A stretch of DNA of 28,882 bases from a virus. Below the pieces are notes generated by a model that searched no databases, had not been told where the DNA came from, and saw nothing but the letters and a program-made list of their open reading frames with translations. This document shows, piece after piece, positions 4,585-8,736 of the stretch. The position numbers and the translations under genes are program-made. The DNA lies in IMG/VR virus record IMGVR_UViG_3300027743_000073, positions 1 through 28,882 of that record. One strand, given 5' to 3'. The number at the start of each line of letters is the position of its first letter. The first letter of the stretch is position 1.

Positions 4585-4614
4585 TTGACATGAATTTGTT
4601 GACAAAAATATAGA
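4585..4614 (+). promoter_or_regulatory. Rightward promoter facing the structured RNA region
   Basis: TTGACA (4585-4590) is followed by an 18-bp spacer and TATAGA (4609-4614). A second TTGACA lies at 4599-4604 and a TATAGT at 4617-4622. Its -35 box is the mirror image of the leftward -35 box, only 5 bp away. Transcription would start near 4621, immediately before the first of a series of hairpins and about 450 nt before the next protein gene, as expected for an RNA gene or a long structured leader. Confidence 0.5.
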
Positions 4615-4620
4615 TGTATA

Positions 4621-5040
4621 GTGTTGGCGCGGAGATGTGGGTGAGACTCCCACTTGCGACGAGGCACAAGGCCGTGAGGTACGCCCCTCGTTTCCCAGGC
4701 AATGGGGTAACAGAACCTACCGACAGGACAGGGCGCGGCAACGCGCTGCTGTCTGCATAAACCTATGAATAATTTGAACCTTTATGCAGATCGACATAGT
4801 TTGGTGAGTGTGTCGATGCGGTCAACATTCCAATTTGACCTGTATTTCCTGCTCCGGAAACAAACACGGCTCGGGACTTTCGTCAACCGAGCCGCGCATC
4901 CGGGGATTTGAGTGTACCACGTTGCGGCAGATTTATGGTATGGTGCTTGTAACAACTCCCCGTGTGGGAATTGCCGAGCGGCTGCTACTGCTCAAAATTT
5001 CGACAACTGTGGGTGGGGCGGGTAAGCCAGCAGCCGCTCC
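4621..5040 (+). ncRNA. Candidate structured non-coding RNA upstream of the HNH gene
   Basis: No convincing protein is encoded on either strand, yet the region is full of perfect stems. They are: 4637-4641 with 4649-4653 (5 bp); 4659-4664 with 4686-4691 (6 bp); a two-part hairpin pairing 4727-4731 with 4749-4753 and 4733-4737 with 4742-4746 around a GCAA tetraloop (GNRA type); 4752-4761 with 4781-4790 (10 bp); 4790-4796 with 4811-4817 (7 bp); 4867-4874 with 4887-4894 (8 bp); and 4976-4986 with 5029-5039 (11 bp). A promoter ends just before the first stem. It could be a stand-alone RNA, several RNAs, or the long leader of the HNH gene. I cannot match it to RNase P, tmRNA, 6S or a known riboswitch. 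The RNA's 3' end is not clear. Confidence 0.42.
4752..4790. repeat. 10-bp perfect inverted repeat
   Basis: TCTGCATAAA (4752-4761) and TTTATGCAGA (4781-4790) are perfect inverted copies separated by a 19-nt AT-rich loop. It directly follows the GNRA hairpin and shares two bases with its outer stem, so the two structures could compete. There is no U-tract after it, so it is not a typical terminator. It could be part of the RNA fold or a binding site for a dimeric protein. Confidence 0.6.
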
Positions 5041-5070
5041 CCGCTCTGCCTACGGCTTTGGGAAATACGA

Positions 5071-5751
5071 ATGGCGACGAAATTAAAGACTCAAATTTCG
5101 CAGGAATGCAAGCCAATTAGGCGTGGCGTGTTCCTCGATTTGCGGCGTGGGTATTTTGTTGCTTTGGACGGCACACACGGGCCGTGGCCTTGCCGCAAAG
5201 AAGCGGAACAAGCGTATCAGCGTCTTTGCGCGGCTGAAGCGGCGAAGGTTGCAGCGCGTAGCGTTCGCGTGGCTTGGGCAATTAACGCGAATCAACAGGC
5301 AGCGGCAGAGCGCAAGAACGCAGCCCGAGCAGCAGCAAAGGTTGCTGCTGGTGCAAAGGAATCAAAGCGAATTGCACGGGCTGAAGGCAAACACGCGATA
5401 ATTCGCGAATCGTACGCTTGTGCGCGGCGTGGCGATTTCCGTGGGTGGGCGCGGCTGCACCTTGATTCACGAAGTAAACACGGCAAGGTTTATGAACTAC
5501 CAGCCGATGCGGATTGTCAACTCATGTGGTTGATTTACCGCCACCGTCCAGAGGGGTTTGAGGTAGACCACATCATTCCACTTGGTAAGGGCAAGCATCA
5601 TCAAGACAACTTGCAGTACCTTCGTGCGAGCGCGAACTCGCGCAAGGGCGCATCACTGAAGTATCGTTACGCTGATGGTGACCGCATTGAGTGGAAGACC
5701 GTGTTGTTAGCGGCAGGTATTCCGATGTGGAGAATCACAAGCAAATACTGA
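5071..5751 (+). CDS. HNH homing-type endonuclease
   Basis: The 226-residue product has an HNH nuclease domain near residues 163-193: FEVDHIIPLGKGKHHQDNLQ followed by YLRASANSRKG. D166-H167, H176-H177, N180 and N189 fit the conserved metal-binding and catalytic pattern of free-standing phage HNH endonucleases. The N-terminus (GVFLDLRRGYFVALDG...EAEQAYQRL) resembles three short strands and a helix, like the AP2-type DNA-binding module found in such enzymes. The middle is an alanine/lysine-rich helix, probably a DNA-binding spacer. These enzymes nick or cut DNA and often act as selfish elements. The ribosome-binding site is weak (GGGAAA). Structured non-coding DNA lies on both sides, which is unusual and may mean that the gene was inserted into an RNA locus. 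Its extent and family are clear; its target is not. Confidence 0.85.
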   Translation: MATKLKTQISQECKPIRRGVFLDLRRGYFVALDGTHGPWPCRKEAEQAYQRLCAAEAAKVAARSVRVAWAINANQQAAAERKNAARAAAKVAAGAKESKRIARAEGKHAIIRESYACARRGDFRGWARLHLDSRSKHGKVYELPADADCQLMWLIYRHRPEGFEVDHIIPLGKGKHHQDNLQYLRASANSRKGASLKYRYADGDRIEWKTVLLAAGIPMWRITSKY

Positions 5752-6121
5752 CAAACAAACGCATTTATTTCCAAACTCTTTGACCTGGTCGATACGCGCC
5801 GATGACGGCATATGCCAACAGGCGATTGACACTTGGTCGAAGGGATGCGGAGACACGGACGGCGGAACGTCCGGCGAAATCATGGGTAAGGCAAGCAACC
5901 GTCATGTGAGTTCACCGAATAGTTTCGGATCTCGTAGTGCTTCCAGCGTGGCAACTGCGCTTTGTGCAGACGGAATGAATAGGACGGTAGTAAGACCTTT
6001 GTGATCGGTGAGATACCCGGCGAAGGCCGACTGTGTTTGACAGTCGTAGGTGCAGGTGCGCAACCTAGGCGAATTTGTCCTCGCTAAAATTGGGGCAGCA
6101 CCCTCTTCTGTTGATGCGCGG

Positions 6122-6190
6122 CTCCGGCCATGCAACGACGCAGTAGCCCCGCCGAGGGGTTACTGCATCCACGCTCTCCGGTCATGCAAC
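6122..6190. repeat. 15-bp direct repeat flanking a strong hairpin
   Basis: CTCCGGCCATGCAAC (6122-6136) and CTCCGGTCATGCAAC (6176-6190) differ at one base and lie 54 bp apart. The 11-bp hairpin at 6140-6166 sits between them. The arrangement could reflect a duplicated RNA element or paired protein-binding sites. Confidence 0.6.
6140..6166 (+). other. 11-bp hairpin with GCCGA loop
   Basis: Bases 6140-6150 pair with 6156-6166: GCAGTA with TACTGC, one G-U wobble, then CCCC with GGGG, closed by a 5-nt loop GCCGA. It is the strongest local hairpin in the 5752-6396 interval. It is not followed by a U-tract, so it is probably an RNA structural element rather than a terminator. Confidence 0.6.
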
Positions 6191-6289
6191 AAGGGATGTG
6201 CGAAGCCAAGCAGTACGTCAACGAAGCGTCAGCATCGAAGTGCTGGGATTGAAAGAGATTTGAAAAATCTCGTCCTTCCCTTCCGATCT

Positions 6290-6382
6290 ACATCCCCGCT
6301 CTAGCACCGGCATTGAGCCTCGCTGAAATCAAAAAAAATCACTCGCCTAAACTTGCGATTTGACATCCCGCTTTAGCACCGG
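6290..6382 (+). repeat. 20-bp imperfect direct repeat upstream of the 6397 gene
   Basis: The 21-base block at 6290-6310 (ACATCCCCGCTCTAGCACC plus GG) recurs as a 20-base block at 6363-6382 (ACATCCCGCTTTAGCACCGG), with one deletion and one substitution. The second copy forms the spacer of the promoter at 6360-6389; the first has no good -10 box after it (CATTGA). The first copy may be a decayed promoter duplicate or a second site for the same regulator. Confidence 0.6.
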
Positions 6383-6389
6383 TTATACT
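6360..6389 (+). promoter_or_regulatory. Strong promoter giving a leaderless transcript
   Basis: TTGACA (6360-6365), an 18-bp spacer and TATACT (6384-6389) form a near-consensus promoter. The -10 box ends 7 nt before the ATG at 6397, so transcription is expected to start at or next to the A of the start codon. There is no ribosome-binding site between them. This is the classic layout of a leaderless mRNA. Confidence 0.68.
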
Positions 6390-6396
6390 TGCGCGT

Positions 6397-6846
6397 ATGA
6401 CAACAATCACATGGATGGACAACCGAAAGTTGATGGACGAACTGTGGCCGAAGTGGAGACTTGAGCCTGTATTGTCGAGCATCTTGAACGAGAAGTGGGG
6501 TCAACTGCATCAGGACAAACTGCAAAGTTGCATTCGCCAGCACCGTTTAGTGCGCGACTCAAAGCCTGATATATCAGCGATACACAAGGCGTACTGCGCT
6601 TTGATCCCTCAGAACCTGGTAGGGGAGCGCGAGGTTGAGCAGACCCGCAACGACCTACAGCGTTGCACCCCGATCAGCCCTGAAGAGTTTGCTGAGTGGG
6701 ATGTGTGGGCTGAAGCGATGTTGAAGAACGTGACGAACGAAGAACTTAAGCAGGTCAGCGAGTTCCTTGGTCATGTACCGGAGTCACGCCGAATCCTTGC
6801 AGTTGCCGTTGAGCATGTCCGCAAGCCAAGCGTGAGATACGCGTGA
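6397..6846 (+). CDS. 149-residue hypothetical protein, leaderless
   Basis: This is the first gene of the rightward accessory block, starting at the predicted transcription start. The product begins MTTITWMDNRKLMDELWPKW and contains two helical parts. The first (residues about 15-60) carries KWGQLHQDKLQSCIRQHRLV. The second is acidic (SPEEFAEWDVWAEAMLKNVT). It ends in a basic stretch (HVRKPSVRYA). The layout suggests a small all-helical protein, perhaps with a replication or regulatory role, but no motif supports a specific call. Its stop overlaps the next start by four bases (6843-6846), forming an operon with the following genes. Confidence 0.68.
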   Translation: MTTITWMDNRKLMDELWPKWRLEPVLSSILNEKWGQLHQDKLQSCIRQHRLVRDSKPDISAIHKAYCALIPQNLVGEREVEQTRNDLQRCTPISPEEFAEWDVWAEAMLKNVTNEELKQVSEFLGHVPESRRILAVAVEHVRKPSVRYA

Positions 6847-7178
6847 GGTACGAGAGCAAACCAGTATTGCGGCACATGAACGCACTTGCCATGTATTTGC
6901 GAGGAGAAGGCTTTACCGTTGGAATGACGCACACCGGATTTATTGCCATTGACTCGGAAGGTGTGGTGTTTCAGGTCAGTCCGTTCAGGACAAGCGCACA
7001 GATTCAGCACCCCATACACAAGCGATTCCGTGAGGAATACTCGCGCAAACTCCCACAAACGCATTGGTTTGACGAGCGGATGGAAATTCTGATTAAGTGG
7101 GCAAACAATCCAAAGAGCAAAGAATGGACTCGAAAGATGTCAACATCAAGACGACCTGTGCAGCGGACAAACGCATGA
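6843..7178 (+). CDS. 111-residue protein, first copy of a tandem duplicate
   Basis: The product contains AMYLRGEGFTVGMTHTGFIA, then IDSEGVVFQVSPFRTSAQIQ, then a helical half with REEYSRKLPQTHWFDERMEI and a C-terminal basic tail (MSTSRRPVQ). The next gene encodes a clearly related protein in the same order (AMYLRHEGFTVGQTKTGFVA, YRTSAQIFHP, REEYALSLQEIYWF, MSRRPV), so the two arose by tandem duplication. The first half looks like a small beta domain with a glycine-rich turn; the second is helical. The family is not recognised. Start and stop overlap neighbouring genes (ATGA). Confidence 0.72.
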   Translation: MRYESKPVLRHMNALAMYLRGEGFTVGMTHTGFIAIDSEGVVFQVSPFRTSAQIQHPIHKRFREEYSRKLPQTHWFDERMEILIKWANNPKSKEWTRKMSTSRRPVQRTNA

Positions 7179-7516
7179 TGTACCCAACCACCCGCAACAA
7201 AGCCAAGATCCTCCGAGCAGCCATGTACCTACGGCATGAAGGCTTTACCGTTGGCCAAACAAAGACAGGGTTTGTCGCTGTTGACGATGACGGCATTGTC
7301 ATTCAAGCAACCCCGTACCGCACCAGCGCACAGATCTTTCATCCTAAACTCAAGATCTACCGTGAGGAATATGCGCTATCCCTGCAAGAAATTTATTGGT
7401 TCACCGAAAAACTGTCATTGTTGACAGAGTGGGCAAAAGATCCAAACGCCAAAGAACCGCCGCGCATCATTGCCATGTCACGCAGACCTGTACCGTCACG
7501 GCAAGGAACCGCATGA
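7175..7516 (+). CDS. 113-residue protein, second copy of a tandem duplicate
   Basis: An upstream GTG at 7097 is in frame, but the ATG at 7175 overlaps the stop of the first copy (ATGA) and gives an N-terminus matching that copy, so it was chosen. The product is related to its neighbour over almost its whole length: conserved GFTVG, TGF, YRTSAQI, REEY and SRRPV blocks with many substitutions, so the duplication is not recent. Divergence with a kept core suggests that both copies are under selection, perhaps with different partners. The function is unknown. Confidence 0.7.
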   Translation: MMYPTTRNKAKILRAAMYLRHEGFTVGQTKTGFVAVDDDGIVIQATPYRTSAQIFHPKLKIYREEYALSLQEIYWFTEKLSLLTEWAKDPNAKEPPRIIAMSRRPVPSRQGTA

Positions 7517-8416: not shown

Positions 8417-8736
8417 TCACCAAGCGTATAGCCATCGTCGCTGTTAATGAAGACGGCTATCGCATCGGGCAATCGCATCACAACGCAAGAATCTCAGATT
8501 ATGCAGTACAGTGCATAAGAGACGCACGGGAGGAAAGAGGGCTTTCCTACGGCAAATTAGCGTCAATGTTTAAACTCTCAAAGTCCACCATACAGAAACT
8601 ATGCAACTATGAAAGACGCGCCCAAATCCCTCGCGCTTACAAAAAAGTCACCCAGTACCTCTGTGATCAAACGGCCAGTGGGCAAGCCGAAACGCGGCCC
8701 GGTCATGCACAACCCCAAGGCAGCGGAAGTACTTGA
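8413..8736 (+). CDS. Helix-turn-helix DNA-binding protein
   Basis: The 107-residue product contains, at about residues 22-70, HHNARISDYAVQCIRDAREE followed by RGLSYGKLASMFKLSKSTIQ and KLCNYERRAQIP. This is a helix-turn-helix common in phage proteins and beside HNH endonucleases (HNARLxxxxVxxIRxLxxEGxSYxxIAxxFxISxxTVxxIC). The N-terminal 20 residues (ITKRIAIVAVNEDGYRIGQS) look like two short strands. The C-terminal 35 residues are glycine, serine and glutamine rich and overlap the start of the small terminase gene in another frame. A regulator of packaging or late genes is plausible; the overlap may couple the two genes. Confidence 0.65.
   Translation: MITKRIAIVAVNEDGYRIGQSHHNARISDYAVQCIRDAREERGLSYGKLASMFKLSKSTIQKLCNYERRAQIPRAYKKVTQYLCDQTASGQAETRPGHAQPQGSGST

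Follow-up and report, generated by a model that had tools for sequence, protein, structure and literature searches.

Large structured RNAs encoded by phages are few, and their functions are unknown. Phages such as P4 possess an immunity RNA (CI RNA), and phage put sites or late-gene leaders adopt folds which modify RNA polymerase or gate termination, put sites being far under 420 nt. Among the large RNAs, GOLLD is better conserved in its 3' part than in its 5' part (PMC12286853). The putative RNA described here, of about 420 nt, resembles GOLLD in being a large structured phage RNA without known function which shows this same contrast between its 3' and 5' parts (PMC12286853), but it is about half the length of GOLLD, it has three alleles at one site, and no tRNA lies in the stretch analysed, whereas GOLLD is often located near tRNA genes. 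With ROOL it shares a phage origin, an elaborate secondary structure and the lack of a known function, while it differs in having no Rfam match and no tRNA island and in being restricted, in the scans run, to one phage clade. As in the HEARO/IscB systems, a structured RNA adjoins an HNH gene; here, however, the HNH gene is 5' of the RNA, can be replaced and is lacking from some relatives, and again there is no Rfam match. What likens it to the P4 CI RNA is that both come from phages and that specificity could vary from one relative to another, although the RNA considered here is much larger and no antisense target was found for it.

The window, that is, the whole stretch of DNA analysed, is an IMG/VR virus record of 28,882 bases (IMGVR_UViG_3300027743_000073) which carries podovirus genes. 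ERF and RusA recombination genes are oriented leftward, and opposite to them runs a rightward packaging cluster (Sf6-like small terminase, large terminase, head-tail adaptor and major head protein). The structured segment lies between these divergent clusters, 3' of an HNH gene (5071-5751) and 5' of a gene at 6397 which was found only within this phage clade; the phages bearing it are freshwater phages. Search for tRNA genes in the window gave none. Further along, the neighbouring genes at 6843-7178 and 7097-7516, without Pfam match, have about 67% DNA identity over 150 bases and are apparently a tandem duplication.

An earlier note, made from the letters alone, had described positions 5790-6271 as a large structured non-coding phage segment, and its general character was borne out by single-base indels as well as by the excess of folding and by compensatory changes, the two points on which the note had said that it could be refuted. 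The minimum free energy of 5770-6275 was -196.0, against -174.9 +/- 5.7 in 100 dinucleotide shuffles (z -3.71), none of which folded as well; for 5752-6396 the z value was -2.90, with none of 20 shuffles as good. The single-base indels between relatives, together with the high identity of the RNA, argue against a coding function. As regards the extent, the structured segment stood, while 6196-6271 is probably flank outside the folding core, since relatives diverge beyond about 6190-6195; the conserved end of the RNA thus seems to lie near 6195.

Relatives were gathered by a large terminase search, which kept 80 loci, and by an HNH protein search, which gave 11. When they were compared with the window, the left flank proved to be fixed, ending at 4919, and the right flank started at about 6244 in most of them, while the contents in between differed. 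Three such contents were distinguished: type A, that of the window; type B, an RNA of about 330 nt preceded by a 52-residue open frame or by what remains of it; and type C, an RNA of about 300 nt without any gene. Each of the 37 contigs with an intact interval carried exactly one type (16 A, 11 B and 10 C), these being the 39 contigs with the gene at 6397 minus two in which the interval was ended by the contig boundary. The large terminase gene of the type A phage L039 is 99.3% identical to those of the type B phages L037 and L038, and when the gene at 6397 is compared, L012 (A) and L050 (B) are nearest to each other. Judged from these sequences, the RNA type does not strictly follow the phage backbone, and alleles are exchanged between related phages. 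Leaving out L039, the median identity of the type A RNA is 99.0%, whereas the gene at 6397 has 94.0% and the large terminase 93.8%, a difference which can mean either strong constraint or recent spread. The open frame of type B (L015:6650-6810 and relatives) is basic, is placed 5' of the RNA and matches no family; L097 and L110 have it in degraded form but keep the RNA. In the left flank, a second structured RNA candidate was observed at 4586-4760 (plus strand), behind TTGACA-18-TATAGA at about 4586-4615; it has no Rfam match, and its hairpin loop reads GUGA, GUAA, GCAA or GAAA, all of them GNRA tetraloops, among 27 distinct relatives.

The HNH cassette, including its own leader, spans about 4920-5733, and HNH was the sole domain detected in the protein. 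Two relatives, L009 and L012, are without the gene and have the RNA about 75 nt past the left flank, while four relatives (L003, L004, L025 and L027) carry an unrelated AP2-HNH_3 gene in the slot instead; from this absence and replacement, the HNH gene is accessory. The stretch holding its last codons belongs to the RNA leader in L009. Most simply, the gene would be a homing endonuclease which has settled in the leader of the RNA. The two unrelated HNH genes have their first codons in common and their last codons partly so, as though their central parts had been exchanged in frame (5071-5114 and 5729-5751 in the window; L003:4990-5560). A structured 5' leader of the HNH gene, with a 10-bp inverted repeat (AGCGGCTGCT / AGCAGCCGCT), was also noticed at 4950-5070, and is missing along with the gene in L009.

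The features of the type A locus are collected in the table. Two of the helices proposed in the earlier note were confirmed by reading: ATGACGG at 5802-5808 is perfectly complementary to CCGTCAT at 5899-5905, giving the long-range 7-bp helix, and the 11-bp hairpin is formed by GCAGTAGCCCC-GCCGA-GGGGTTACTGC, its 11 pairs including one G.U. The three-way junction which had been drawn fared differently, since its closing strands, GGTGC at 6049-6053 and GCACC at 6098-6102, are perfect complements but the junction itself is absent from type B, where the second strand, AGACC, leaves only three pairs and where GGUGU/AUACC can pair locally. H3 competes with this junction, and H3 plus H4 are the arrangement that we prefer on comparing the sequences. 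R2 forms part of the candidate closing helix, and type B also has two like repeat copies at the corresponding place. The idea of R1 and R2 as a switch competing for one complement was dropped, the duplex energies being mostly not significant and the pairing being broken in some relatives. A similar 18-mer at 8692, within the small terminase gene, was discarded as an RNA target, as it does not change with the RNA type.

Positions in the window of the features of the type A locus (L039 is a type A relative; z values are from comparison with shuffled sequences)
Feature	Position	Strand	Basis or remark
Possible extended -10 promoter, TGGTATGGT	4936-4944	+	5' of HNH gene and RNA; by eye
Accessory HNH endonuclease gene	5071-5751	+	PHROG HNH/endonuclease VII matches
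5' leader of type A RNA	possible start ~5734	+	
Type A structured RNA, core	5776-6195	+	Folding excess, conservation in type A relatives, 3' divergence point
P1 stem, 5776-5785 with 5835-5844	5776-5844	+	z -4.9; two one-sided pair-keeping changes in L039
Candidate long-range closing helix, 5846-5853 with 6175-6178 and 6185-6188	5846-6188	+	Consensus fold of window and L039
Hairpin P2, CGGACG/CGTCCG	5856-5873	+	z -3.0
Hairpin H1, 5996-6002 with 6020-6026	5996-6026	+	Double compensatory change in L039; same position in type B
Hairpin H2, 6028-6034 with 6040-6046	6028-6046	+	z -3.7; type B counterpart
Hairpin H3, 6049-6053 with 6060-6061 and 6063-6065	6049-6065	+	Type B counterpart; weak energies
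Hairpin H4, 6075-6081 with 6092-6098	6075-6098	+	Type B counterpart; weak energies
Hairpin H5, includes repeat R1 at 6124-6136	6110-6139	+	z -3.4; shorter type B counterpart, z -2.5
Hairpin H6, the 11-bp hairpin of the earlier note	6140-6166	+	z -6.3; type B counterpart of unlike sequence, z -5.9
Repeat R2, CCGGTCATGCAAC	6178-6190	+	Near copy of R1, read from sequence
Separate sigma-70-like promoter of the gene at 6397, TTGACA-18-TATACT	6360-6389	+	Promoter scan

Compensatory changes among homologues were found, in small numbers, in H1 of type A and in three pairs of type C, and their scarcity is due to the closeness of the sequences within each type. In type A, L039 turns one H1 pair from U-A to C-G, and four other pairs which differ between L039 and the window stay paired, two of them in P1 and two in the candidate closing helix (5846-5853/6175-6188), where none is broken; over the whole consensus no differing pair is broken either, but that consensus was fitted to both sequences. 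In type C, double pair-keeping changes were seen in 3 of the 93 consensus pairs, one in a 5' hairpin and two, adjacent, in the long-range helix which closes the RNA. The changes in type B are one-sided, nine varying pairs being kept throughout and four being broken in at least one sequence. Plain folds of these two types exceeded their shuffles only slightly (z -1.6 for type B and -1.1 for type C).

Judged from their sequences, types A and B share homology along some 215 nt. Their local alignment scored 230, against a mean of 105 and a maximum of 158 in shuffled controls, none of 1000 reaching 230, and the reverse-complement control was not significant. Only the 3' parts align, the 5' parts giving no significant alignment, and both types allow H1-H6 to be drawn in one common order, several stems at a matching place having different sequences. 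Taken individually, H2, H5 and H6 beat shuffles in both types, H1 does so in B and is borderline in A (p 0.06), and H3 and H4 are weak. The shuffle test was relied on because the type A profile matched type B with strong E-values when shared flank was included, the core alone giving 0.03-1. Moreover, a covariance model built from type B alone did not recover type A with significance, so that the evidence for homology consists of the alignment test and the common genomic position; the match of this model in L051, at an E-value of 0.055, looks like noise. Type C was rejected as a sequence homologue of A and B, the similarity not being significant.

The earlier suggestion of a GOLLD- or ROOL-like RNA could be put to covariance models, and membership of GOLLD, ROOL or HEARO did not hold, since no Rfam family matches: the whole window is without a match at the gathering score, and types A, B and C gave only noise at E-values up to 10, with none of these three families among it. 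Neither was any group I or group II intron matched at E-values up to 10, the site being intergenic with no gene interrupted. BLASTN of the three types against 50,697 phage records gave no match, and when viral and genome contigs were scanned by pattern, the A/B core came up in this phage clade only; L159, a single genome contig from the pattern scan, turned out by profile search to be a chance hit. In the distant podoviruses MW202640 and MW202722 no RNA was seen on comparison, the gap 3' of a homing endonuclease in MW202640 being an open reading frame. The place of this RNA would be that of a new family among the large phage RNAs of unknown function, distinct by the tests run from GOLLD, ROOL, HEARO and introns.

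That the locus specifies a structured, conserved and exchangeable phage RNA is well supported, and that this RNA is independent and acts in trans is likely, its transcription being deduced from the DNA. The reading adopted here, to which we give a probability of roughly 60%, joins both: a structured phage RNA with exchangeable alleles which is transcribed independently and acts in trans. Host-type RNA polymerase would transcribe 5776-6195 rightward, independently of the next gene, into a non-coding RNA of about 420 nt, which would fold into the P1 stem and a core, probably closed by the long-range helix 5846-5853/6175-6188, and end in H1-H6. Promoter-like sequences close to sigma-70 are found directly 5' of B and C (TTGCAC-16-TATGAT; TTGCAT-16 or 17-TATGAT), while the promoter of type A is not clear, the sequence at 4936-4944 not having been found by the consensus promoter scan. 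Related phages swap the RNA at a single fixed site, where each has one of three alleles, so that the slot seems needed and the sequence replaceable. The fold would then act in trans, the likeliest ways being the binding of a protein, from host or phage, and self-assembly.

A different arrangement, rather unlikely, is a cis-acting leader of the rightward operon, in which read-through transcripts would carry a fold that modifies RNA polymerase or gates termination. The RNA is on the same strand, about 200 bases 5' of the operon, in all relatives which have the operon; but a strong promoter (6360-6389) stands between the two, so that the gene at 6397 does not need the RNA as its leader, comparable promoter sequences lie 3' of the RNA in the relatives read, and about 420 nt is far larger than put sites generally are. 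Two imperfect 31-base copies (74%) were observed at 6280-6310 and 6352-6382, and the promoter of the gene at 6397 overlaps with the second. It is improbable that the RNA is an ornate one forming homo-oligomers like GOLLD and ROOL while lying outside those families. Its size without any match, the 3' conservation which exceeds that of the 5' part as in GOLLD (PMC12286853) and the paired repeats R1 and R2 would suit such an RNA, whereas its smaller dimensions, the lack of nearby tRNAs and the repeat competition, unsupported by duplex energies, would not.

The position between divergent operons and the universal presence could also be explained at the DNA level, by a replication origin or a packaging site with single-strand structure, for example. 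This is quite improbable, as pairs alternate between Watson-Crick and G.U forms, the GAAA and cUACGg loops of type B fit a plus-strand RNA, and promoter-like sequences precede B and C. As for an RNA belonging to the HNH gene, either a HEARO-kind guide or a homing intron, the two do adjoin in most type A phages; this can hardly be maintained, and is already contradicted, because phages lacking the gene, or having an unrelated HNH gene in its stead, keep the RNA, neither HEARO nor intron models matched, no gene is interrupted and the protein has an HNH domain only. An obligate partner of the IscB type is likewise not what L009 and L012 show. Finally, a role in lysogeny immunity is weakened by the fact that the longest relatives, of 31.7 to 39.9 kb, yielded neither a tyrosine nor a serine integrase.

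Returning to the trans-acting RNA with exchangeable alleles, a broader and more tentative proposal is that it represents a new class of phage RNA needed for its fold and not for its sequence, whose three alleles, two of them homologous and the third with a covarying closing helix, would be exchanged like specificity cassettes. If this were true, such alleles could possibly confer type-specific assembly, host takeover or superinfection control. In addition, the clade offers a natural experiment at one site, with close phages differing in the RNA allele and with the HNH gene present, replaced or absent, and the necessity, exchangeability and type specificity of the RNA thereby become directly testable.
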